Shown here in pieces: positions 5,863 to 37,367 of a DNA stretch of 64,000 nucleotides. Position numbers and translations under genes: made by a program. The notes under the pieces are model-generated. The model was not told where the DNA came from. It was given only the letters and a program-made list of their open reading frames with translations, and did not search any database. The number at the start of each line of letters is the position of its first letter. Within the stretch, counting starts at the first letter, position 1. Origin of the DNA: an uncultured Pseudomonadales bacterium (lineage in GTDB: Bacteria > Pseudomonadota > Gammaproteobacteria > Pseudomonadales > Azotimanducaceae); the NCBI GenBank assembly GCA_958296405.1, contig OY282519.1, forward strand, positions 1,782,132 through 1,846,131, read 5' to 3'.

Positions 5863-5924
5863 TCGCGCCGCGCCGGGTTGGCCCAAACGTGGCGGCAACA
5901 TTCGCTGCGCCAAGCGCCTGATCC

Positions 5925-6356
5925 GTGCCGCGTCTTGAGCGCAGCGCGCTGGTGCCGTTTGCGGCGGATGCGGTGTGTGCGCTCGTCAACGACGTGGAGC
6001 GTTACCCGGAGTTCTTGAAGTGGTGTACGGCCGCCAAGGCCGTCGCCGTGGAAGGCGGCGAGATGCTGGCCACCTTGACGTTGAAGGGCCTTGGGCGCAC
6101 CGAATCGCTGGTCACGCAGAACCGAGTGGAGCAAGGTCCACGCATTGTCCTCAAGCTGGTTGACGGCCCGTTTCGCCGCTTGGACGGCATTTGGACCTTC
6201 ACGCCGGTCGGGCACGGTTGCCGCATTCACCTCGCGCTGGATTTCGAGCTGCAGGGCGGGCTCATCAGGCTGCTTGGGGCGCCGTTGACGCGCCGCGCCG
6301 CGGACGCCTTGGTGGACGCATTCAGCGAACGCGCCCATGCTGTGTTGGGAGGCTGA
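5925..6356 (+). CDS. ratA: RatA, START-like/COQ10 family protein
   Basis: A 143-residue cyclase/START-domain protein. In E. coli the homologue is described as a toxin that blocks 70S subunit association, while related proteins help ubiquinone function. Family marks are FAADAVCALVNDVERYPEFLKW near the N terminus and the C-terminal helix RRAADALVDAFSERA. It starts with GTG at 5925 and is followed 2 nt after its stop by ratB. The order smpB-(transporter)-ratA-ratB-bamE-recN matches the conserved gammaproteobacterial cluster. Confidence 0.92.
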   Translation: MPRLERSALVPFAADAVCALVNDVERYPEFLKWCTAAKAVAVEGGEMLATLTLKGLGRTESLVTQNRVEQGPRIVLKLVDGPFRRLDGIWTFTPVGHGCRIHLALDFELQGGLIRLLGAPLTRRAADALVDAFSERAHAVLGG

Positions 6357-6358
6357 CC

Positions 6359-6664
6359 GTGCGTGTGGAAGTGGTGTACGCGCTGCCAGAGGTGTGCCAC
6401 GCGGCGCACTTTGAGTTGGCGGAGGCGGCCACCGTGGGGGATGCCGTGGCCGCGGCGCGGCGCTCCCCTGCGTTTGCCGGCTTGGATTTGGCGTCGTCGG
6501 CGGTGGGCGTCTTCGGCATCTTGGCGTCGCCGGCGACGCCTCTTGCCGATGGTGACCGGGTGGAGTTTTACCGGCCCCTCGCTCGCGACCCGAAGGCGCG
6601 TCGGCGCGCGTTGGCGGCGGATTCTTGCGGGCCGGGCGAGCTAGCCGGGCAAAAGCCCCCTTAG
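6359..6664 (+). CDS. ratB: RnfH/RatB family ubiquitin-like protein
   Basis: A 101-residue protein of the RnfH (UPF0125) family with a beta-grasp fold; its function is not settled. It reads VRVEVVYALPEVCHAAHFEL at the start and has the family-typical C-terminal block GDRVEFYRPLARDPKARRR. The GTG start at 6359 lies 2 nt after the ratA stop with GGGAGG upstream, so the two genes are co-transcribed. It converges on bamE with only a 10-nt gap. Confidence 0.92.
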   Translation: MRVEVVYALPEVCHAAHFELAEAATVGDAVAAARRSPAFAGLDLASSAVGVFGILASPATPLADGDRVEFYRPLARDPKARRRALAADSCGPGELAGQKPP

Positions 6665-6674
6665 CGTTGGTGCT

Positions 6675-7043
6675 CTAAGCCTCTTCGGCTGCGGCGGCTT
6701 CCGAGGGCTTGAGATCGCCAATGATGCGCACGAGTTGGTCGTCTTCAAAGAAGATGGACACGATCACCCGCGACTGAAACGCATTGGGCACTTCAAGAGT
6801 GTAGACGTAATCCCAACGGGAATTGTCAAAGGCGTTGCGGACCACCGGGCCGCCCATCACGAACGCCACTTGCTCCGGCGTCATGCCGGGCTTCAGGCGA
6901 TCCACCATCTCTTGGGTGATGACGTTGCCTTGCTGCACCGTGACGCGGTGGATCTTGGGCAGTTGGAAGGAACACCCGCTCGCCGCCAAACAGGCGATGA
7001 GCATGAGCGCCGGGGCGATGTGTTTGGCTGCGGCGTCCGGCAC
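6675..7043 (-). CDS. bamE: Outer membrane protein assembly factor BamE (lipoprotein)
   Basis: BamE (SmpA) is a small lipoprotein of the BAM complex, which folds beta-barrel proteins into the outer membrane. The signal peptide ends in the lipobox LAASGC, and the mature part carries the family motif MVDRLKPGMTPEQVAFVMG, then NSRWDYVYTL and VSIFFEDDQLVRI. I place the start at GTG 7043 because GGAGCGAGG precedes it and it gives a normal-length signal peptide; an upstream ATG at 7106 would add 21 residues. It is transcribed in the same direction as recN but starts downstream of it. Confidence 0.93.
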   Translation of the reverse strand: MPDAAAKHIAPALMLIACLAASGCSFQLPKIHRVTVQQGNVITQEMVDRLKPGMTPEQVAFVMGGPVVRNAFDNSRWDYVYTLEVPNAFQSRVIVSIFFEDDQLVRIIGDLKPSEAAAAEEA

Positions 7044-7130
7044 GATGCCTCGCTCCGTTGCGAAGCGCGGAATGGTAGCGGGAACTGGCGCGGTCAGGAA
7101 GGGCAATGGCGGAACGGCGCGGCGCAGCCG

Positions 7131-8795
7131 TCAGGCCGCAGCGTCGCCGGCGCGCTTGGCGCCGTCGAGCAGGCTCTGGGCAAAGCTGCGGGTCTCTCCG
7201 GTCACGCGCTGCCCGGCCAGCATGCGCGCCAGCTCCTCCGTGCGCTCGGCGTCATCCAAGCGATCGATCACCGTGTCGCTGGCGGCGGTCTTCACCACAC
7301 GCAGATGCGTGTCGCCCAGCGCCGCGACTTGGGGGGCGTGGGTGACGCACACCACCTGGGCGCGTTCGGCGAGGCGGCGCAGCATGCGCCCCAGCACATC
7401 GGCGGTGGTGCCGCCGAGGCCGATGTCCGCCTCGTCGAGCACCAAGCATGGCAGCGCCGAGCGCTGGGCGGCCACCACCTCGATGGCGAGCCCGATGCGC
7501 GCCAATTCGCCGCCGGAGGCAATCTCCTGCAATGGCCCGGCCGGATATTGCGGATTCGTGCGCACCAAGTAGCGAGCCGCCTCCAAGCCACGTTCATTGC
7601 GTGTCGCGGTGAACTCCACCTCCAAGGTGGCGTCGGTGAGCCGCAGCTCCGCCATCGCCGCCGCCACGTCCCGCGCGAACGCGGGCGCCGCCCGGTGCCG
7701 CACCGCGGACAGCTTCTCCGCCGCTTCGCAGTACGCCGCTTCGGCGGCTTGGGCCGCGGTTTGCAGTTCATCGAGACGGTGCGCCTTGGCGTCCAGGCTG
7801 GCGAGGGCCGCCTCCACCTCGCCGGCGTGGGCTGGCAAGCCGGATGGCGCCACGCGATGCTTGCGCGCGATGTCGTGAATGAGGTCCAGCCGCTCGTCCA
7901 CCTCGGCCAGCGCCGCGGCGTCTTCCGGCACGGCGTTGAAGTAATCGCGCAACTCGACCAAGGCTTCTTCCGCGTCCACCCGCGCCGCTTGCAGGTGTCG
8001 AACCGCCGCCGCCAGCGCGGGGTGCGGGTCGTCGATGGCTTCAAGCTCTCCGCCGGCGCGCGCCAAGGGCGGGATCAGGTCTTCCTCCAACGCTGTCTCG
8101 TGGCCGGCGACCACCGCGCGAATGTCGCTCGCCGCGGCCAGCCGCTTGCGGCGCGCCGTGAGCGCCTCGAACTCACCCTCCTCCACCGCCAGCGCTCGCA
8201 GTTCGTCTGCTTGATAGCGCAGCAGGTCGGCGCGCTCGCGCTCGCCTTGGGCGCGGCTCTGCGCGGCTTCGAGTTCGCGCTCACGCGCTTGCCAGCGTCG
8301 ATGGGCGTCGCGCACGGCCAGCGCTTCGGCGCCGGCGCCGGCATAGTCGTCCAGCAGCGAGAGTTGCACCGAACGTTCCAGCAACGAACGGTGTTCGTGC
8401 TGCCCGTAGATGTCCACCAGCGGTTCGCAGAGCGCCTGCAGCGCGCCGAGGTTGACGGGGGCATTGTTGACGAATGCGTGCGAGCGGCCGCCGCCCACCA
8501 CGCGCCGCACCAAGCAGCGGTTGGGCTCGAACGGGTCTAAGAGTTCCCGCTCCTCAAGGTAACGCCAAGCGGTGCCGTTCGGGTCTAGCTGGAAGTCTGC
8601 CGCCACTTCGCAGCTTGCCGCGCCGGGGCGAATGTGCGTGGCCGCGGCGCGCTCGCCGAGCACCAGCGCCAAGGCGCTCAGCAGGATGGACTTGCCGGCG
8701 CCAGATTCCCCGGTGATGACGGTGAGGCCGCCGGCGAACTCGATGTCCAGCGCCTCCACGAGCGCGAAGTTCCTGACGATGAGCTGCTTCAGCAT
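7131..8795 (-). CDS. recN: DNA repair protein RecN
   Basis: RecN is an SMC-like ATPase that helps hold and repair DNA ends at double-strand breaks. The 554-residue protein has normal length, with Walker A GESGAGKS near residue 30, the MLKQLIVRNFALVEALDIEF start, QHEHRSLL, a central alanine/glutamate-rich coiled coil, the EIASGGELARIGLAIE signature and Walker B LVLDEADIGLGG, and a late VTHAPQVAALGD motif. It diverges from hrcA across a 70-bp control region. No LexA box could be confirmed by eye. Confidence 0.96.
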   Translation of the reverse strand: MLKQLIVRNFALVEALDIEFAGGLTVITGESGAGKSILLSALALVLGERAAATHIRPGAASCEVAADFQLDPNGTAWRYLEERELLDPFEPNRCLVRRVVGGGRSHAFVNNAPVNLGALQALCEPLVDIYGQHEHRSLLERSVQLSLLDDYAGAGAEALAVRDAHRRWQARERELEAAQSRAQGERERADLLRYQADELRALAVEEGEFEALTARRKRLAAASDIRAVVAGHETALEEDLIPPLARAGGELEAIDDPHPALAAAVRHLQAARVDAEEALVELRDYFNAVPEDAAALAEVDERLDLIHDIARKHRVAPSGLPAHAGEVEAALASLDAKAHRLDELQTAAQAAEAAYCEAAEKLSAVRHRAAPAFARDVAAAMAELRLTDATLEVEFTATRNERGLEAARYLVRTNPQYPAGPLQEIASGGELARIGLAIEVVAAQRSALPCLVLDEADIGLGGTTADVLGRMLRRLAERAQVVCVTHAPQVAALGDTHLRVVKTAASDTVIDRLDDAERTEELARMLAGQRVTGETRSFAQSLLDGAKRAGDAAA

Positions 8796-8812
8796 GGGGC
8801 GGCGCGGGTGAT

Positions 8813-8861
8813 TTGTCGGTTTGCGCGGCAGCCTGCTAGAGTAGCCGAGTCACGAGACTCT
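8813..8861 (+). promoter_or_regulatory. Probable hrcA promoter with an inverted repeat
   Basis: TTGTCG (8813-8818) and TAGAGT (8837-8842) are 18 bp apart, and TGC directly before the second gives an extended -10. AGAGT (8838-8842) and ACTCT (8857-8861) form an inverted repeat with a 14-nt gap across the likely start of transcription. It is not a CIRCE element (TTAGCACTC-N9-GAGTGCTAA), so any role as an HrcA operator is speculative. Confidence 0.4.
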
Positions 8862-8865
8862 GTGC

Positions 8866-9942
8866 ATGGCCATGACAACCTCCGGCAAGCGCGAGGCGGG
8901 CCGCCGCGGCGGCGATGACCGCAGCGAGGAACGCGCCCACACGCTCTTCAAGATGCTGGTGGAGCAGTACCTCGAGGACGGTGCGCCGGTGCCGTCGAAG
9001 ACGCTCGCTTCGCATGTGGAGGTGAGTTCGGCGACGGTGCGCAACGTGATGGCGGAGCTTGAGGCGCGCGGCTTCGTGCGTTCGCCGCACACTTCCGCCG
9101 GCAAGGTGCCCACCAACCGCGGGCTGCGCTTCTTCGTGGACAGCCTCATCTCCGTGCGGCCGCTGGATGTGCAGAACATGCGGCGGCTGCAGGCGGAGCT
9201 GCATCCCGACCGTGCGCCGGAAGACCTCGTGGCCACGGCGTCGCGCTTGCTCTCGCACATCACGATGATGGCCGGCGTGGTCACTTTGCCGAAGCCGGAG
9301 CGGGTGGCGCTGCGCCAAGTGGAGTTCCTGCAGCTGTCGGGAGGCCGTGTGCTCGCCATCCTCGTGGTGAATGAACGCGAGGTGCAAAACCGCGTCATCC
9401 ACACCGACCGGGAGTACTCCGAGGCCGAACTGCAGCAGGCAGCGAACTTCCTGAATGAGCGCTATTCCGGCAGGGCGTTGGGGGAGATTCGCGCCAAGCT
9501 GGTGGAAGATATGGAGGCGGACAAGAAGCGGTTGGACCGGCTCATGCAGACTGCTCTCGACATTGCCCGCAAGGCGTTCGCTGACGACGACGGGGCGCCG
9601 GAGCGCTATGTGGTGAGCGGCGCGCCCAACTTGGCGGATGTGCTGCCAGACGCGGCGGCGATGCGCGAACTGTTCGATGAGTTCGCCCACAAAGGCGCGA
9701 TCGTCCACTTGCTCGACCGCTGCTTGGAGTCTGACGGCATCCAGCTATTCATCGGCGAAGAGTCTGGCTACCGACTGTTCGACGCCTGCACCGTGGTGAC
9801 GGCGCCATACGCGGTGAACAAGGAGGTCGCGGGGGCCTTGGGCGTCGTCGGCCCCACGCGCATGGCCTATCAGCGCGTCATTCCCATCGTCGATGTCACC
9901 GCGCGCCTGTTGGGTGCTGCCATGAGCATGGACCGGGCTTGA
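8866..9942 (+). CDS. hrcA: Heat-inducible transcription repressor HrcA
   Basis: HrcA is a dimeric repressor of chaperone genes that usually binds CIRCE operators and needs GroEL to stay active. The 358-residue protein has an N-terminal winged helix (KMLVEQYLEDGAPVPSKTLA, then VSSATVRNVMAELEARGFV and SPHTSAGKVPTNRG) followed by the GAF-like core with MMAGVVTLP and a late GPTRMAYQRVIPIVD. It lies directly before grpE-dnaK-dnaJ. No CIRCE sequence is visible anywhere in the window, so its targets, probably including groESL, would be elsewhere. Confidence 0.96.
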   Translation: MAMTTSGKREAGRRGGDDRSEERAHTLFKMLVEQYLEDGAPVPSKTLASHVEVSSATVRNVMAELEARGFVRSPHTSAGKVPTNRGLRFFVDSLISVRPLDVQNMRRLQAELHPDRAPEDLVATASRLLSHITMMAGVVTLPKPERVALRQVEFLQLSGGRVLAILVVNEREVQNRVIHTDREYSEAELQQAANFLNERYSGRALGEIRAKLVEDMEADKKRLDRLMQTALDIARKAFADDDGAPERYVVSGAPNLADVLPDAAAMRELFDEFAHKGAIVHLLDRCLESDGIQLFIGEESGYRLFDACTVVTAPYAVNKEVAGALGVVGPTRMAYQRVIPIVDVTARLLGAAMSMDRA

Positions 9943-30830: not shown

Positions 30831-30959
30831 AATCTGTGTTTCCGCACTGGCACATACGGTGGCCCGGGTGCGAACGGCCAAGCACAGCGGCAGGAACAAG
30901 ACGCACGAACGCCTTCCGATGGCGGCCCGTTCGGAGAAATGCCCTCGACATGAACCACA

Positions 30960-31200
30960 TATGCGGCATCCGCTCCCACGGCGACGCCCACGGGTTGGCC
31001 GCCGTGCTGGCGGAACTTGCGGGATGATGCTGCATCAGGACGGCTCGACCCATGAATGGGTGCTTGGGACGGCATTGGAACCTCATCATCACCCTCGACG
31101 ATGCGACCTCGGAGCACTATTCGATGTTCTTCGTCGAGGAGGAAGGCACGGCGTCGAGCTTTCGGGGGATGGCGCTCGTTGAGCGCGTCCCCCTGTATGG
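30960..31200 (+). pseudogene. Fragment of an ISNCY-type transposase, frameshifted
   Basis: Frame one reads CGMMLHQDGSTHEWVLG up to about 31065, then the neighbouring frame continues RHWNLIITLDDATSEHYSMF and FVEEEGTASSFRG to about 31170. Together these form the start of the DDE catalytic domain of ISNCY-like integrase-fold transposases, whose pattern is HxDGSxHxW...TxDDATSExYSxFF. The N-terminal part and everything after the FRG block are missing. One frameshift plus truncation at both ends make it inactive. The rest of the 30831-31440 stretch holds nothing else I recognise. Confidence 0.7.
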
Positions 31201-31447
31201 AGCCCTCGACATGGGGACTTGCCCACATCAACGTCTCGGGGGCAGGGGCATGGGCCTGGACAACTCGCGCGGCCCCGACGTGCGTTCGCGCTGCCGTCCT
31301 GCGCCGCGGTGAGCTCGCTCTCCCCGCGGCTGCGGTTGGCTGGGACCGGCAACCCCGATGGATGACAGTGTGTGTGACCCGAGTCGGGAATCGGTATCGG
31401 CCCATGTCCGCGGCCAACCTGCCACCGGCAGGTGGGGCACGGTCAGG

Positions 31448-31515
31448 CCTCTGACCCCCACCAAAGCGGACAACTCATGTGCTACAAACCGGACAGTTCT
31501 GTTTGTTGCTAACGC
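31448..31515 (+). repeat. Putative terminal region of the ISNCY-like element
   Basis: After CTGACCCCCACC there are two AACCGGACA/AAGCGGACA-type repeats, CGGACA at 31467-31472 and 31490-31495, with a 23-nt period and a TGCT after each. Repeats of this form occur at the ends of ISNCY-type elements as I remember them. A matching opposite end was not found. Confidence 0.4.
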
Positions 31516-31619
31516 TTCCCACTGGCTTCCTCGCGATCGCATGAAGTCCCCGGACCCGTCGGCTCGACTTCGTTCGTCCGCGTCGCCTGCACCGTATGAC
31601 GACGCGCTACACTCGCCCC

Positions 31620-32963
31620 ATGACCGAAGCCACATCCCCTGCCGTCGCTCCTGCTGCCGTCAGCTTGTTCTCCAACTGCGGGGCGGGTGACGTTGGATTC
31701 GGAGCGGCGGGATTCCGCTTCCGCGTCATGGCCGAGCTCGTAGAGGATCGGCTTGATGTCGCGTTATGCAACCATTTGAATGCACAGGGAGTTCCAGGCG
31801 ATCTGAGGGAGACGTGGCGAGAGGTTGTGGACCGCTGGCGTCTGCTGCGCGGGGCCGCCGCGCCAGCACTCGTCGCCGCCTGCCCCCCTTGCCAGGGCAT
31901 GAGCACGGCCCGAAGCGACCGCGGCCCCGAGAACGATCCGGACGCCGGCTCGCGGGACGACAGGAACCTCCTGGTGCTGCCCATATCCCATATCACGAAG
32001 ACGCTTGCGCCGACGTTCGTGGTGGTCGAGAACGTGGCTGCGTTTCTTCGTCGAAAGGTGAGGGATCCGGAATCGGGTGAAGGAATCTCGGCGGCCCTCC
32101 TGCTCGTGCGCCTCCTCGCCGACGAGTACGATGTCCATCCGTTTCTGACCGATCTGGCCGACTACGGAGTTCCTCAGAGGCGGAAACGGGCATTCCTCAC
32201 CTTCGTTCGGCGAGCTTCACCCGTGGCCGAGGTTCTCCGCCGGGAAGGACGAGCGCCATACCCTCTTCCTTCCCATGCGCCGGACTACGGTGGCGAGCAC
32301 ATTCGGCTCGATGCGGCTCTCGCCAAGTTCGAACTTCCTCCCCTCGACGGCGAAGATCCGATGTTGGCCAAGAATTCGGAACGTCCGCATCACTTCGTGC
32401 CGGTATGGCCGATGCGCCAACACCGGATGGTGGCCGCGATCCCGCCCGGCTCGGGGACCGGTGCGTGGGAGAACAACGAGTGCCCCGGGTGTGGCACCGT
32501 CGAGACGGATGCCGAAACAGCCGAGTGTTCGGCCTGCGGTGAGTTGCTTCTCAGGCCTGTCGTGCTGGGAGAGGGTCGGCCGAGGCTGGTGCGCGGATTT
32601 CGTCGGGCCAGCTATCGCCGGATGGAGCCAGCACGCCCCGCCGCCACCATCACCACCGCCTCGGGCCGGGTCGGAGGCAGCAGGACCATTCACCCCTTCG
32701 AAAACCGCGTCCTGAGTCCGTTGGAGTGTGCTCTTCTCCAAACGATTCCGACAGACTTTGATTGGGGTGACATCTTGAAGAGAAGAGGGGTGTCGGAGCT
32801 TCGCGCCATGATCGGCGAGGCCGTTCCGCCCCGCTTCACGAGGATGCACGGGGAAGTTCTGGTGTCGTTGCTCACACATGCAGAAGGTGATCTTCCTCTG
32901 ATCGAACAAACCGACAGACGTTGCGAGAATGCCCGTCGGCGACTTGGGCTCGGACCGACATGA
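31620..32963 (+). CDS. DNA (cytosine-5-)-methyltransferase with an inserted zinc ribbon
   Basis: A 447-residue C5-cytosine methyltransferase, likely the modification arm of the following nuclease genes. Motif I is SLFSNCGAGDVGFGAAGF, motif IV ACPPCQGMS with catalytic Cys91, motif VI VVVENVAAF, motif VIII YGVPQRRKRAFL, and motifs IX-X LSPLECALLQTIPTDF and IGEAVPPRF (GNAVPP is more usual). Between VIII and IX lies a four-cysteine zinc ribbon, Cys288-X2-Cys291-X11-Cys303-X2-Cys306, probably part of target recognition. ATG 31620 is preferred over ATG 31596. Its TGA overlaps the vsr ATG. Specificity is unknown. Confidence 0.93.
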   Translation: MTEATSPAVAPAAVSLFSNCGAGDVGFGAAGFRFRVMAELVEDRLDVALCNHLNAQGVPGDLRETWREVVDRWRLLRGAAAPALVAACPPCQGMSTARSDRGPENDPDAGSRDDRNLLVLPISHITKTLAPTFVVVENVAAFLRRKVRDPESGEGISAALLLVRLLADEYDVHPFLTDLADYGVPQRRKRAFLTFVRRASPVAEVLRREGRAPYPLPSHAPDYGGEHIRLDAALAKFELPPLDGEDPMLAKNSERPHHFVPVWPMRQHRMVAAIPPGSGTGAWENNECPGCGTVETDAETAECSACGELLLRPVVLGEGRPRLVRGFRRASYRRMEPARPAATITTASGRVGGSRTIHPFENRVLSPLECALLQTIPTDFDWGDILKRRGVSELRAMIGEAVPPRFTRMHGEVLVSLLTHAEGDLPLIEQTDRRCENARRRLGLGPT

Positions 32964-33379
32964 CGAAGGACTGCTTCGACGTTGAAATGCGGAGCCAAAT
33001 CATGAAGGCGGTTGGCAAGCGGGAAACCGCACCGGAACGCCGGTTCAGGCTCGATCTGTGGAGAATCGGACTCCGGAACCGGAAACATCCACGAATCGCC
33101 GACACCAGACCCAACCTTGCCTTCGTGGGGCTGTGCATCGCCGTCTTCGTCGATGGTCGTTTCTGGCACGGCTGCCCGCGCGACTACGTCGCGCCCGTCG
33201 GCAATGCGCCCCTCTGGCAAGAGAAGCTGCGCCGTAACCGGGCCAGAGACCGTCTCGTCAACGAACGCCTGGAGAACGACGGTTGGACGGTGTTTCGTGT
33301 GTGGGAGTGCGAGGTCAACCAGCGGTTGGAACGGGTGACCGCCCGCATCCGTCAACTGGTCGAGCAGTGCAGAGACTGA
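32960..33379 (+). CDS. vsr: Vsr-like very-short-patch-repair family endonuclease with altered key residues
   Basis: A 139-residue protein of the Vsr family, which normally nicks T:G mismatches left by deamination of 5-methylcytosine and often follows a C5 methylase. It begins MTKDCFDVEMRSQIMKAVG and has AVFVDGRFWHGCP, WQEKLRRNRARDRLVNERL and GWTVFRVWECEV. By alignment to E. coli Vsr, the catalytic Asp51 (RPD) is Asn here (RPNLAF), and zinc ligand Cys66 (GCFWH) is Arg (GRFWH). Each change is one transition from the usual codon. Activity is therefore doubtful. ATG 32960 overlaps the methyltransferase stop; an upstream ATG at 32921 is less likely. Confidence 0.88.
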   Translation: MTKDCFDVEMRSQIMKAVGKRETAPERRFRLDLWRIGLRNRKHPRIADTRPNLAFVGLCIAVFVDGRFWHGCPRDYVAPVGNAPLWQEKLRRNRARDRLVNERLENDGWTVFRVWECEVNQRLERVTARIRQLVEQCRD

Positions 33380-33400
33380 ACGAATCACGAGAGGTGTCAC

Positions 33401-35902
33401 ATGTCCGACACGATCAAGGAGCGCGTTGCCGAGCTGATCCATACCTCCCGGCGGCCGGGCGAGCCGGACCCCGTGGTCGGGGAGGTGGTCCTGCAGGTCG
33501 ATTATCAAATCATCGAACATTTCTCGGAACATCTCTACGACTCGCCCAACAAGGCCGTCGAAGAGTTGGTGGCAAACAGCTTCGATGCATTCGCAACGGA
33601 AGTGCGCGTGTTCACGCCAGGGCCATACACCGCAAACCGGGTCATCGTGTGGGACAACGGGGAATCGATGGATGTCGAAGGGCTGCAACAGCTATGGTGG
33701 ATCGCCAAGAGCCCGAAGTTGAACGGTGACAGGGTGGAGGAACGAGAGGGTAGAACACGAAAGATCATCGGGAAGTTCGGCATCGGCAAGCTCGCATCCT
33801 ACTCGGTTGGCGAAGTCATCAGTCATGTCTGCCGGCACCGAGGAGAATTTTACTTGGTTTCCGTCGACTATGGCCAAATCGAAGGGACCGGGGATGCTTC
33901 CCCGGTATCTTCTCTGAATCCAATCCATGCACCGGTCATCCGTCTGTCGCGAGAACAGACCTTCGAACTCTTGAAGGATCTGTTTGATAGGCCGCCACCA
34001 TCGATCGACATGATGTTGAACGGCGACTCCTGGACCTTCGCGATCATCGAAGAGCTCAAGGTGGACGACCTTTCATCGCGCAGGTTGATGTGGGTGCTGG
34101 GCAATGGAATGCCTCTACGGCCTGATTTCACGATTGATGTAAATGAAGATGAAGTTCAGTCCAAATTGAACAAACAAGCCGTCGTCGATTGGGACTTCGG
34201 ATCGAAGGAAGTCGTAGACGCGGTCAGAAGTCGATGGGATGACGCCGTGGCGAAAGAGGTGTCTCCTATTATAGCATTTGGCAACAGGGTTGGACTCGAC
34301 CCGACTGCGCACACCAAGGAGATACCCTTTGTTCAATTTGCCCGTCTGGGGTTGGTATGGGGACACGTCCGATTGTTCGATGAGACGTTGTTGAAGTACC
34401 GCTCCGCCGACCAAGGGCGAAGCCACGGTTTCTTTCTCGTCGTCCGTGGCCGCCTCTTGAACCCGGACGACGAGCAGCTCTTCCTACCCGATCCATCGTT
34501 TCAGACCTTCTACAGATCTCAATTCGTGATTTATGCGGACGATCTGGACGGCAAATTGCTTGCGGATCGACAGAGGCTGCGCAAGGACGAGCCCGTTGTA
34601 CAGGAACTCGAACTTCTTCAGAAGGCCCTTGCAGGGATTGCCCGCACCACCGTCGAAGCTCGAGACGAAGAACGGGAGACCAGTCAAAGCACACGTTCAA
34701 TTCTGCCTGTGGGCTCACGTACATTTTACCGTGATCCTCTCAACGCACTTCTTCTCAAAGCTCCCATCGAGGACGTCTCTGATTTCGATCCGGCAACGGT
34801 AGGCGTGGAGCGAAAACGTCTCGGAGAGAGTGCGAGAATTTCAGAAGTGGCGCTGAAGGAAGGCGAATTCCACGTCAACACTGCCCATCCTTACTACAGC
34901 GTGTTGGCGAAACGTGCCGGACAGTCGAGAGCAGCACGGGAATTCCTCCGCACTTTCGACCTGTTCGCGATATCTGAACGGTTACTTGAAGGGCATCTTC
35001 TGGACATCGGCATTCCCGAAAAAGACGTCGCGGAAGTCGTGGCATGGCGAGAGGGTCTGTTTAGGCAGTTGGCGGGTTCATACGACAGGACTCCGGAAAT
35101 AGTCGCCGAGATAGACCGGACCTCGTATGTCGGGAACCGTGAATTCGAGAAGGCACTGCGCGACATCTTCGCGGACATGGGATTTTCTGCGGAACACGAT
35201 GGCCGCAGTGGCCAAAAGGACGTTCTCGTGGTGGCGACGGTGGGTCCCGAAAGCTACAAGTTCATCGTGGAGGCGAAAGGATCCAAGAACGACATCGGCA
35301 ACGAAGCCGCCAAGGTGGCGGCCGCCGCGAACCACCGTGATCAAGTCGATGCCGGCCATGCGGTCGTCGTCGCTCGCAGATTCGCCGGTTTCGGACCCGG
35401 GCGAGACGGTGAGACCGCCGCATTGTACCAAGAGTGCAAATCCACAAGGGGCATGTCGATCATGGAGATCGACGCATTGGAGGAAGTATATCTGGCGATC
35501 ACCAAATTTTCTTATCCTTTACCCTTGCTGCGGGACGTCTTCACCACACTCGAAACCCCGGCGCAGAAGCTCGTCAGGATCAGGGGACTCACGAAGCCGG
35601 CGGAAGGATTCGACTACTCGGACCTCCTGAACAAGATATGGCAAAGACAAGGGGGAGTGGCGAGCGACGACGTGGTTCCCTACCGCTCGATCTTCCAAGA
35701 CGGCCGTTGGAAAGAGGAAGGCATGGACTTTCAGGATTTTCAACTCCGTCTTGTCGCCCTCGACACGCTGGCGGCGGGACGGATTTCGATGAATACGAAC
35801 CGGGAACATGTCTATCTGAGGCAGTCACCCGACTTGATTCTCGCACAGATCGAGAAATCGTTGCGAGGAGAGGGACATGATGTTCAGGAGTCTGACGGAT
35901 GA
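33401..35902 (+). CDS. MORC-like GHL (HATPase) protein fused to a PD-(D/E)XK nuclease
   Basis: An 833-residue protein. Residues about 30-140 are a GHL/Hsp90-type ATPase: N-box VEELVANSFDAF (Glu54/55, Asn59, Asp62), Mg/ATP motif WDNGESMD (Asp85) and lid motif GKFGIGKLASYS (124-134). The middle resembles the transducer region. Residues about 578-660 look like a restriction nuclease: GQKDVLVV with Asp607, then KFIVEAKGSKNDIG with Glu624 and Lys626. Iyer, Abhiman and Aravind (2008) linked such MutL/MORC-like ATPases to restriction-modification operons with C5 methylases and Vsr, exactly this context. GAGAGG precedes the ATG. Base composition is visibly more AT-rich than the core genes. Confidence 0.85.
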   Translation: MSDTIKERVAELIHTSRRPGEPDPVVGEVVLQVDYQIIEHFSEHLYDSPNKAVEELVANSFDAFATEVRVFTPGPYTANRVIVWDNGESMDVEGLQQLWWIAKSPKLNGDRVEEREGRTRKIIGKFGIGKLASYSVGEVISHVCRHRGEFYLVSVDYGQIEGTGDASPVSSLNPIHAPVIRLSREQTFELLKDLFDRPPPSIDMMLNGDSWTFAIIEELKVDDLSSRRLMWVLGNGMPLRPDFTIDVNEDEVQSKLNKQAVVDWDFGSKEVVDAVRSRWDDAVAKEVSPIIAFGNRVGLDPTAHTKEIPFVQFARLGLVWGHVRLFDETLLKYRSADQGRSHGFFLVVRGRLLNPDDEQLFLPDPSFQTFYRSQFVIYADDLDGKLLADRQRLRKDEPVVQELELLQKALAGIARTTVEARDEERETSQSTRSILPVGSRTFYRDPLNALLLKAPIEDVSDFDPATVGVERKRLGESARISEVALKEGEFHVNTAHPYYSVLAKRAGQSRAAREFLRTFDLFAISERLLEGHLLDIGIPEKDVAEVVAWREGLFRQLAGSYDRTPEIVAEIDRTSYVGNREFEKALRDIFADMGFSAEHDGRSGQKDVLVVATVGPESYKFIVEAKGSKNDIGNEAAKVAAAANHRDQVDAGHAVVVARRFAGFGPGRDGETAALYQECKSTRGMSIMEIDALEEVYLAITKFSYPLPLLRDVFTTLETPAQKLVRIRGLTKPAEGFDYSDLLNKIWQRQGGVASDDVVPYRSIFQDGRWKEEGMDFQDFQLRLVALDTLAAGRISMNTNREHVYLRQSPDLILAQIEKSLRGEGHDVQESDG

Positions 35903-35957
35903 ATGGCGGCTCTGGTTGCGGCAGCAGGCGATGGTGGTCTCACAAAACCCGGTTTGA
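35877..35957 (+). pseudogene. Cut-off start of a fourth gene of the MORC-like operon
   Basis: Within the last 26 nt of the ATPase gene, AGGAGAGGG is followed by ATGATG opening the frame MMFRSLTDEWRLWLRQQAM, which ends at TGA 35955-35957 after 26 residues. A strong ribosome binding site and the overlapping layout suggest the true start of a downstream gene whose body was lost. The sequence is too short to name a family. From here to 36385 I see no other gene. Confidence 0.5.
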
Positions 35958-36385
35958 CATTTCTGTGTTGAATATGGAGGAGCCATAACATCGGGCCAAT
36001 GTTGGCCAATGGTATGAATTCAGCGCGGGATGCGACTTGAATGCGATGATGCAGATCTTGGGTGTGGGTGTTGACGACACCGGACGGCTCGATGTCCCGT
36101 CACGCCGGAGGCACGTGCAGGATCTTGGGCTGAAGTTCGTGGGCTTCGCTGAAGAGAAGGGTGAGGCATGACATCTGAGCTTGCTCTCTGCTCCCGAATG
36201 ACAGGCCCTTCGCCGACTGGTCTCACCACGATCGTTATGTGAATTGTGGCCACTTCTGTGATCTAGGCACAAAGCCGCATTGAAGGGCCGCTCGGAAGAT
36301 TCTGGCGGTGGTCGAGCTCGTGGTCGTGGACAATTCGACGTAAACGACAAGTTCTTTTTCATTCGATGTCGCGCGATCACGAATC

Positions 36386-36935
36386 GTGGACGTGCTCAGG
36401 ATTTCGGGAACGACGCCGCCGGGTTTTGATGGTCTCTATCTGACACGAGACTTGTTCGGCAAGGTGCGTATCATTGTATCGGATGATCTTCGAGCGGACC
36501 GATCCTGTCGGACCGCCGTGCAACATCTCGCGGGCTGTCTGCACGAACCACTGAGTGCGCATGGCTACTCTACGGAAACGGGATTCTCTTTTGTCAGCGC
36601 CGAGTGCCTGGAGACGATCCAAGAACAGGCGTTGAAAGCTCGAATCCGATGTGTACCGGATCGATCGCCTGATAACGGGTGGCGATTGGTGGACGGTCAG
36701 TTCGCCGGACCCGTCACGTCCAGACGGAAGTCCCCATCGCTACACTCTCTTCTCGGTCAAAGGGCGGGGTTGGACGCAGCACCGTCGCCGCGGTTCTCGC
36801 TTGGCACTTGGCGCGCAGCGGCGAAAGGGTCTTGGTCGAACGCCTCTGCCGACTCTGGCGAAGCGTTCTCGTTCGATCTGGACGATGAACGTGCCCCCCA
36901 CGATCCTATCGCCGTCCACTGGACGTGCGGCCTTG
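36386..36935 (+). pseudogene. Decayed KGGVGR-type P-loop ATPase (MinD/ParA-like)
   Basis: Pieces of one protein lie in three frames in the right order. Frame one (36386-36660) reads CLHEPLSAHGYSTETGFSFV. Frame two (about 36655-36765) reads IDRLITGGDWWTVSSPDPS and RYTLFSVKG. Frame three (about 36760-36845) reads KGGVGRSTVAAVLAWHLA and RSGERVLV, the deviant Walker A. Then, back in frame one, GEAFSFDLDDERAPHDPIAV (about 36855-36920) matches what I recall as the C terminus of the same family. Roughly 250-300 codons between Walker A and that tail are deleted. Such ATPases accompany restriction-type operons, so it probably belonged to the MORC-like system. Confidence 0.65.
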
Positions 36936-37166
36936 CCGCGGGTGCCCGAAGGGACGAGCCGCCGGCGAGACCTTCTTCGCGGGCGCCGAAGCCGGGGCTC
37001 CGCCTACGCGGTCTTCGTTATCGTGCGTCGAACGCTGTTCCGCGTTGTCGCAAGGTAAGGCACCAAGGGCAAACTGATGTTCGGGCTCAGCGCCCTCTAC
37101 CGGCCAACGTGTCCGAACTCGTCGAGGTAGGCCAAACACGTCATCACGGACCACAGATACGCGAAA

Positions 37167-37186
37167 GCCCACGCCGGAGCGTGGGC
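37167..37186. terminator. Perfect GC hairpin at the end of island B
   Basis: GCCCACGC and GCGTGGGC flank a CGGA tetraloop. There is no T-run. Two weaker hairpins follow (GCCG-AAAAA-CGGC at 37206-37218 and CCCCACA/TGTGGGG at 37249-37273). They could end transcripts from the island before tRNA-fMet. Otherwise 36936-37320 shows nothing recognisable. Confidence 0.35.
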
Positions 37187-37324
37187 CTCGGGAGGAGGGC
37201 AAACCGCCGAAAAACGGCTTGCGTCTCAAAATCGAGCTTAGATAGCTTCCCCACATGATGTCAAAGTGTGGGGGCTCAGCCCCTCAACTGGCCCAAGGTA
37301 GGAGCGTTTCAACCCGCGCAAGCA

Positions 37325-37352
37325 TTGCGTAACGGAATTGGCGGGCTATAAT
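37325..37352 (+). promoter_or_regulatory. Promoter of tRNA-fMet and probably the nusA-infB operon
   Basis: TTGCGT (37325-37330) and a perfect TATAAT (37347-37352) are 16 bp apart, and the tRNA begins 15 nt after the -10. The GC-rich bases right after the -10 (CGCCC) resemble a discriminator of stringently controlled stable-RNA promoters. Confidence 0.75.
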
Positions 37353-37367
37353 CGCCCACTTGACCGG

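Follow-up and report, generated by a model that had tools for sequence, protein, structure and literature searches.

A cassette of three genes, coding for a C5-cytosine DNA methyltransferase, a Vsr-like protein and an 833-amino-acid protein that joins a GHKL ATPase domain to an Mrr-like PD-(D/E)XK nuclease domain, is located in the genome of an uncultured bacterium of the Azotimanducaceae (Gammaproteobacteria), in a stretch of 64,000 nucleotides of contig OY282519.1 (assembly GCA_958296405.1), hereafter the window. Judging from sequence, the cassette is probably an ATP-dependent restriction-modification system of two genes, the third gene being degenerate. We give about even chances to the broader proposal that the large protein represents a family of GHKL-Mrr restriction endonucleases that are gated by ATP, have not been described before and can exchange their modification partner, i.e. 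amino-methylases in most lineages and a zinc-ribbon C5 methylase plus a later-inactivated Vsr in the lineage of the window. An earlier note on this DNA had suggested a system of the restriction type that includes a GHKL ATPase-nuclease, and this is supported by the domains, by methylase linkage in eight of nine loci and by a relative that lacks the insert. The features discussed below are, in window coordinates:

31620..32963, + strand, C5-cytosine DNA methyltransferase gene (PF00145, motifs, alignment with locus L009)
32960..33379, + strand, gene for a Vsr-like PD-(D/E)XK protein of 139 amino acids (TIGR00632, PDB 1cw0)
33401..35902, + strand, gene for the 833-amino-acid protein (GHKL ATPase, S5-like region, Mrr-like PD-(D/E)XK nuclease, C-terminal extension)
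33542..33898, + strand, GHKL ATP-binding domain, residues 48-166 (PF13589)
35135..35359, + strand, Mrr-like nuclease domain, residues 579-653, with E583, D607 and E624-x-K626 (PF04471, hhalign)
36386..36885, + strand, remnant of a KGGVGR-motif ATPase, broken over two frames (pieces 36386-36760 and 36676-36885)
30918..37153, no strand, insert of 6,236 base pairs (bp), ends good to about 1 nucleotide (blastn against the corresponding interval of genome G008)

A GHKL ATPase joined to an Mrr-like nuclease

The three frames are open and overlap or nearly touch, just as the earlier note had described: the methylase and Vsr genes share an ATGA overlap of 4 nucleotides (Vsr ATG at 32960-32962, methylase stop at 32961-32963), a gap of 21 nucleotides separates the Vsr gene from the GHKL gene, and all lie on the + strand. 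They presumably form one operon. The GHKL domain of the large protein matches PF13589 (HATPase_c_3) at 2.6e-15 over residues 48-166, above the curated cut-off, and carries the Bergerat-fold motifs of the superfamily (N-box, DxG, GxxGxG/K) as N-box E55/N59/D62, DNG at 85-87 and GKFGIGK at 124-130. Eleven ATP-site residues were checked, and each is invariant across the eight full-length proteins of the family; this bears out the GHL ATPase domain claimed earlier. HATPase_c_3 was found in six of six members scanned. A profile search of the PDB with the eight-member alignment retrieved Hsp90-family ATPase domains (best E 6.4e-8). The S5-like region that follows is named from Iyer et al. 2008 and from its position, with no domain match behind the name.

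The nuclease domain matches Mrr_cat (PF04471) with 25.1 bits against a cut-off of 21 over residues 579-653. Its catalytic pattern E..D..(E/D)xK is largely maintained in the eight full-length proteins, with E583 and K626 present in all, D607 as Asp in seven and Glu in one (L039), and E624 as Glu in five and Asp in three (L028, L039, L041). Conservation of catalytic residues among eight proteins, seven of them 24-68% identical to that of the window, argues that the domains are not chance matches. Alignment to 11 Mrr proteins with hhalign gave a probability of 92% (E 5.9e-7, 59 columns); these came from 20 loci after exclusion of three without a frame and six longer than 400 amino acids, leaving frames of 242-362 amino acids. 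Much lower values were obtained against Shedu proteins (0.2%) and the C-terminal part of BbrUII-like proteins (0.1%), both weak negatives given thin alignments of four and seven sequences. Thus, by sequence comparison the nuclease is closest to Mrr among the three families tested, and the PD-(D/E)XK domain that had been placed near residues 570-670, with Asp607, Glu624 and Lys626, is confirmed by profile and alignment, with Glu583 to be added. A 347-amino-acid frame in another genome (L003, G003:C189:6826-7176) matches solely within the nuclease part (35% identity over residues 562-677) and is a predicted separate Mrr-like protein close to this domain.

The affinity to Mrr gives some room to a modification-dependent type IV restriction enzyme, which would cut foreign-methylated DNA while the neighbouring methylase writes a pattern that the enzyme ignores. 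E. coli Mrr does cut methylated DNA. Mrr-type catalytic domains are, however, common (31 of 60 genomes), so that the domain says little about the target, and a lasting association with a methylase is the opposite of what type IV systems usually show; we regard this explanation as quite unlikely.

Distribution of the family

Nine distinct loci of GHKL-Mrr proteins are known: the window, L009, L010, L012, L028, L038, L039, L041 and L043 (L040, a near-copy of L039, was left out). They are distributed over the window host and a genome of the same class, Gemmatimonadota, a haloarchaeal plasmid and a viral contig. Eight of the loci encode a full-length protein, the other seven being 24-68% identical to that of the window. 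In a tree of the first 460 residues, comprising the eight family proteins and 17 other GHKL rows (one a duplicate) with several long branches, the family forms one clade (100/100), and nine rows including a BbrUII/HgiDII member form a separate one (98/98); the order within the family clade is resolved only for window+L009 and L010+L038.

Full-length relatives are scarce among genomes related to the host. The window protein matched 16 genomes among 97 relatives (E<=0.001), at full length only in the host's own two copies. Alignment A1 retrieved five of 369 same-class genomes (E<=1e-15), with matches beyond the GHKL part only in the host copies and G123, and seven of 398 same-phylum genomes, at full length only in the host. 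A search of 395 genomes from the phylum to which G837 (source of L009) belongs retrieved five at E<=1e-30, one of them G837 itself. The class, phylum and G837-phylum surveys scored no more than two candidates per genome, so extra copies could escape. Other loci of the family came to light through a genome-contig search (L009), plasmids (Salarchaeum L012) and, with alignment A1, viral contigs (L028).

The second copy in the host, paralogue L010 (7510-10068 of the locus, G000:C1:1198509-1201013), is an intact GHKL-Mrr protein with its catalytic residues, and its nearest relative is the frameshifted L043 of G123 (66% in the best segment), which has an amino-methylase adjacent. In L041 (3032-10512, G990) the GHKL-Mrr and amino-methylase genes overlap a helicase-methylase-like gene of 1,680 amino acids, which presumably resembles single-chain type ISP restriction enzymes; this locus is possibly a three-gene hybrid.

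Mobile elements contributed few copies. Plasmid searches gave 8 records with the window protein (1 covering 80% of its length), 28 with P0003 and 16 with the L028 protein (0 covering 80% in either case), while phage searches gave 1 record with the window protein and 2 with that of L028, none covering 80%. One viral locus was found with alignment A1 (L028; the same contig again appears as L044), and no viral contig was retrieved with the window protein, the window methylase or P0010. Phage or plasmid cargo as a common vehicle was therefore rejected, 80% coverage being reached by one plasmid record and no phage record. In L028 itself (5887-9305, IMGVR_UViG_3300021365_000073) a GHKL-Mrr gene is followed by an amino-methylase gene amid small phage-like genes, and by its gene content this contig would carry a virus-borne copy of the system.

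Methylase partners

The linkage of a methylase gene to a nuclease gene that marks restriction-modification systems is found in eight of the nine loci, all but L010, with a DNA methylase at most 5 kb away, and in seven of nine the methylase lies within the same presumed operon (in the window with the Vsr gene between). This agrees with the earlier expectation that homologues would be linked to methylases. As a control, tblastn (E<=1e-4) with seven of these methylases was run on nine loci that total 77,588 bases, chosen from other work in the same study and not at random; there was no match. Two classes of partner occur. C5 methylases are located upstream of the GHKL gene in the window and L009, and amino-type methylases (PF01555) accompany it in six loci (five by Pfam, L038 by homology), directly downstream in L028, L038, L039, L041 and L043. 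With a C5 methylase in two loci and the amino-type in six, the partner has probably been exchanged within the family. The simplest history that we infer, from a tree whose order is restricted to the two pairs named above, would begin with an amino-methylase as the ancestral partner, with a zinc-ribbon C5 methylase taking its place in the lineage of the window and L009.

Several observations weigh against a restriction-modification system. Seven methylase queries detected no methylase next to the host paralogue L010 within 18 kb. In L012 four genes and a distance of about 3 kb separate the upstream amino-type methylase from the GHKL gene, a run of N interrupts the methylase frame of L038, and the GHKL gene of L043 has a frameshift in its nuclease part. 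Further, the family is small, with only nine distinct loci known, and Mrr_cat exceeds the Pfam cut-off only in the window protein and not in five other members scanned; for the family as a whole, the nuclease assignment therefore depends on the alignment. Finally, a structure prediction of the whole 833-amino-acid protein from a three-sequence alignment gave a mean predicted local distance difference test score (pLDDT) of 33.3 and a predicted template modelling score (pTM) of 0.23. The predicted order of helices and strands at 577-658 resembles a PD-(D/E)XK core, an observation that carries no weight as the model is unusable. Elsewhere in the host genome (G000:C1:2689009-2690043), not linked to the paralogue, lies a gene for an amino-methylase that belongs to the same subfamily, has 37% identity to that of G123 and could act as partner of the paralogue.

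A paralogue without an adjacent methylase is what one might expect of a stand-alone Shedu-like nuclease, in which the ATPase would sense an infection-specific DNA structure and the protein would cut without reference to a methyl mark, the methylase being a passenger or an incidental protector. The anti-phage protein VcSduA, with GHKL and a DUF4263 nuclease, requires both active sites, and no methylase is mentioned for it in the available parts of the source (PMC12137116). Against this stand a methylase within 5 kb in eight of nine loci, drawn from two classes, the lack of any PF14082 match and the low hhalign probability already given, a weak negative. We consider the Shedu-like alternative unlikely, though the strongest of those weighed here, and retain a restriction-modification system as the probable explanation.

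The C5 methylase and the Vsr-like gene

The methylase matches PF00145 (3.2e-26, above the curated Pfam cut-off) and PADLOC MTase_II (1.3e-42), and possesses the motifs PPCQ, ENV, QRRKR and GEAVPP. Its start at ATG 31620 lines up with that of the L009 homologue (75.8% identity); an alternative start lies at 31596. The inserted zinc ribbon reported earlier is seen in the alignment as a zinc-ribbon-like CxxC-x11-CxxC pair in the target-recognition region, which is shared with three of six other aligned methylases (L009, Pseudomonas aeruginosa, E. coli), has a looser form in Peribacillus and is lacking in Pantoea and G508. On a P. aeruginosa plasmid, a methylase of this zinc-ribbon type (37.7% identity) lies beside a BbrUII-like GHKL protein (175.6 bits, below the BbrUII family cut-off), so that pairings of zinc-ribbon C5 methylases with GHKL proteins recur. 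Compared to L009, identities at the three codon positions are 0.819/0.875/0.506 for the methylase (447 codons) and 0.764/0.828/0.415 for the GHKL gene (832 codons), a pattern of constraint at the protein level in both.

The Vsr-like protein is a family member by TIGR00632 (108.3 bits, cut-off 97.85), by PDB 1cw0 (1.1e-13) and by a Pfam Vsr match above the curated cut-off. Aligned to 1cw0, it has Asn52 at the position of the catalytic Asp, which we take to be D51 in E. coli Vsr numbering, while Asp is kept in all 28 other Vsr sequences read (from 150 genomes with 44 matches, the best-scoring 30 were taken as loci and 28 could be aligned). The equivalents of the Glu and of His69 are retained, and the His64 equivalent is Asp (elsewhere His in 23, Asn in 4 and Gln in 1). 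Thus, the Vsr assignment of the earlier note stands as to family and fails as to an active nuclease, the protein being probably catalytically dead. The nearest relative L009 lacks Vsr (best tblastn E 0.44), and both observations point to an accessory, probably inactive gene; Vsr was accordingly ruled out as the nuclease of the system. The frame of the window Vsr is intact despite the Asn and could be a DNA-binding relic or plain decay. Two further Vsr matches exist in the host genome (G000:C1:1680920 and 2965607).

Genomic context

The cassette is flanked by tRNA-Leu(GAG) and tRNA-fMet, with 6,537 bp between them (window 30831-37367). In G008, a genome of the same genus (RimP 97% identical), the same tRNA genes are 301 bp apart, which represents the empty site. 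Homology to this G008 interval stops at 30917 and restarts at 37154 in blastn, i.e. a single clean insert that holds both the cassette and the KGGVGR remnant. The guanine-cytosine (GC) content of the GHKL gene is 0.558 compared to 0.659 for the whole window; this and the empty site in a close relative are both as expected for an acquired cassette. No integrase was recognised by eye in the insert (the family-library scan covered only the three genes and 36386-37255), and blastn found no second copy of the tRNA parts.

The interval was surveyed in ten relatives by means of RimP, found in eight, and seven stretches were compared, that of G008 included. Outside G008 it measures 76 bp in G007 and 199 bp in G013 and holds other genes at 3.7 kb in G005, 3.8 kb in G004 and 4.5 kb in G002; the examined stretch of G044 contained no tRNA-Leu. 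By eye, the genes in these 3.7-4.5 kb intervals look metabolic. With lengths from 76 bp to 6.5 kb across relatives, the tRNA-Leu/tRNA-fMet interval may be an insertion hotspot.

The decayed KGGVGR ATPase downstream is real, but the originally larger system that the earlier note had read from it is not supported. Intact homologues in G008 (L056) and in the host (L057) each lie beside another P-loop ATPase gene as a separate module, and the KGGVGR ATPase was consequently rejected as a part of the system. No GHKL relative or methylase was found by tblastn in 12-kb stretches around these homologues, L009 and L010 (the GHKL loci searched) hold no KGGVGR homologue at E 1e-3, and the N-terminal piece has no match in plasmids. 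The two-gene module itself is conserved (L057 5703-8467, L056 6008-8742): the gene for the KGGVGR-motif ATPase comes first and that for another P-loop protein (GMRGAGKTFWW) second, and in G008 a small gene, judged HEPN-like by eye, precedes them.

The broken KGGVGR frame, the Asp to Asn replacement in Vsr and the frameshift in L043, nearest relative of the host paralogue, might together suggest a decaying island with no present function. However, the methylase and GHKL genes have unbroken frames of 1.3 and 2.5 kb, every catalytic residue checked is present, and the pair is under protein-level constraint compared to L009, which makes this the least probable of the alternatives and leaves a two-gene restriction-modification system as the preferred explanation.

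Proposed mechanism and implications

In such a system, the C5 methylase, by its family, would mark the recognition sites of the host, and the 833-amino-acid protein would be the restriction endonuclease. Its GHKL domain would bind ATP and probably dimerise, the dimer closing a clamp on DNA by analogy with MutL, gyrase B and Hsp90, and the S5-like region would act as transducer to the Mrr-like PD-(D/E)XK domain, which would cut DNA without the methyl mark. Vsr would be a former accessory of deamination repair, now probably inactive. ATP-gated cleavage, protection by methylation and a role in defence are what we infer from the protein families concerned.

Iyer et al. 2008 proposed MORC/MutL-like ATPases inside restriction systems and, in the available parts of the paper, left the role of the ATP cycle as a proposal (PMC2292703). 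With ATPase and nuclease in one chain and a defined methylase, two genes and two point mutants would suffice to test this question. If the broader proposal is true, the ATPase-nuclease would be a transferable cutting module, present also on a viral contig and a haloarchaeal plasmid, and a model in which to test how a clamp of the MutL/MORC type makes DNA cleavage depend on methylation. Moreover, a real exchange of the methylase would show that the specificities of nuclease and modification can recombine within the family. A practical use would be a profile for a family that PADLOC-DB 2023 detects only through its GHKL part (E<=1e-5).

Comparison with known systems

The restriction enzymes of the BbrUII/HgiDII family (NCBIfam NF050001) resemble the window protein in their GHKL N-terminus and C5 methylase partner, the site of M.HgiDII being given as GTCGAC in the available parts of PMC5867850. 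A locus of this family in G508 (L042) even shows the same three kinds of genes as the window, with a C5 methylase, a Vsr gene on the other strand and a GHKL protein of 719.5 bits, in a family that NCBI names restriction enzymes. The window protein, in contrast, reaches 60 bits against a cut-off of 550, over residues 31-149 only, and five other family members reach 33-79 bits. It is also longer (833 amino acids compared to a model of 659 positions), falls in a separate clade and has no C-terminal profile match (0.1%, thin alignment). Membership in BbrUII/HgiDII was therefore rejected on score and clade.

VcSduA (Shedu type I-D, paraMORC3), in the parts of PMC12137116 available, combines GHKL with a DUF4263 nuclease, and in having a GHKL ATPase and a C-terminal PD-(D/E)XK nuclease in one chain it is the nearest experimentally tested architecture found. 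The nuclease of the window is, however, Mrr-like and methylase-paired, the comparison here being one of domains and partner genes. The Shedu domain PF14082 (SduA_C) has no match in the window protein (E<=1) or in five other members (E<=0.01), and Shedu membership was rejected on this ground and on the hhalign probability of 0.2% against only four Shedu sequences. Mrr-type restriction endonucleases (PF04471) share the helix Glu, the conserved Asp and (E/D/Q)xK with the window nuclease, and the Mrr proteins compared are, at 242-362 amino acids, too short for a fusion to GHKL.

The prokaryotic MORC and paraMORC proteins of Iyer 2008, as far as the available text of PMC2292703 describes them, combine GHKL with S5 and are encoded in operons alongside DNA methylases, Vsr and nucleases of the restriction fold. 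A difference is that no superfamily II helicase is found among the three cassette genes of the window. In the same source, paraMORC3 combines GHKL and S5 with a C-terminal E-D-ExK restriction-fold nuclease, RecB-like by profile. The window family has E583, D607 and E624-x-K626, but its nuclease is closest to Mrr of the three families tested; paraMORC3 was compared by its description. The MORC-specific S5 motif is given as GhXhhpXXRhl (PMC2292703); read by eye, the window family has Gly in 8/8 and Arg in 7/8 (Lys once), but Val at the polar position in 8/8, a near miss that fails. Thus, the label MORC-like chosen earlier holds loosely and not in the sense of the MORC-specific motif. Likewise, the view that the arrangement is little described holds for the GHKL-Mrr branch, of which the open-access literature searched (some queries being narrow) contained no description and the available parts of PMC4618763, PMC10855626 and PMC12458937 nothing, and not for its relatives BbrUII/HgiDII and VcSduA, which are described. 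The GHKL-Mrr branch therefore lies outside BbrUII/HgiDII, Shedu and MORC by the tests applied here; a system of its general kind was proposed in 2008, and related families have been named.

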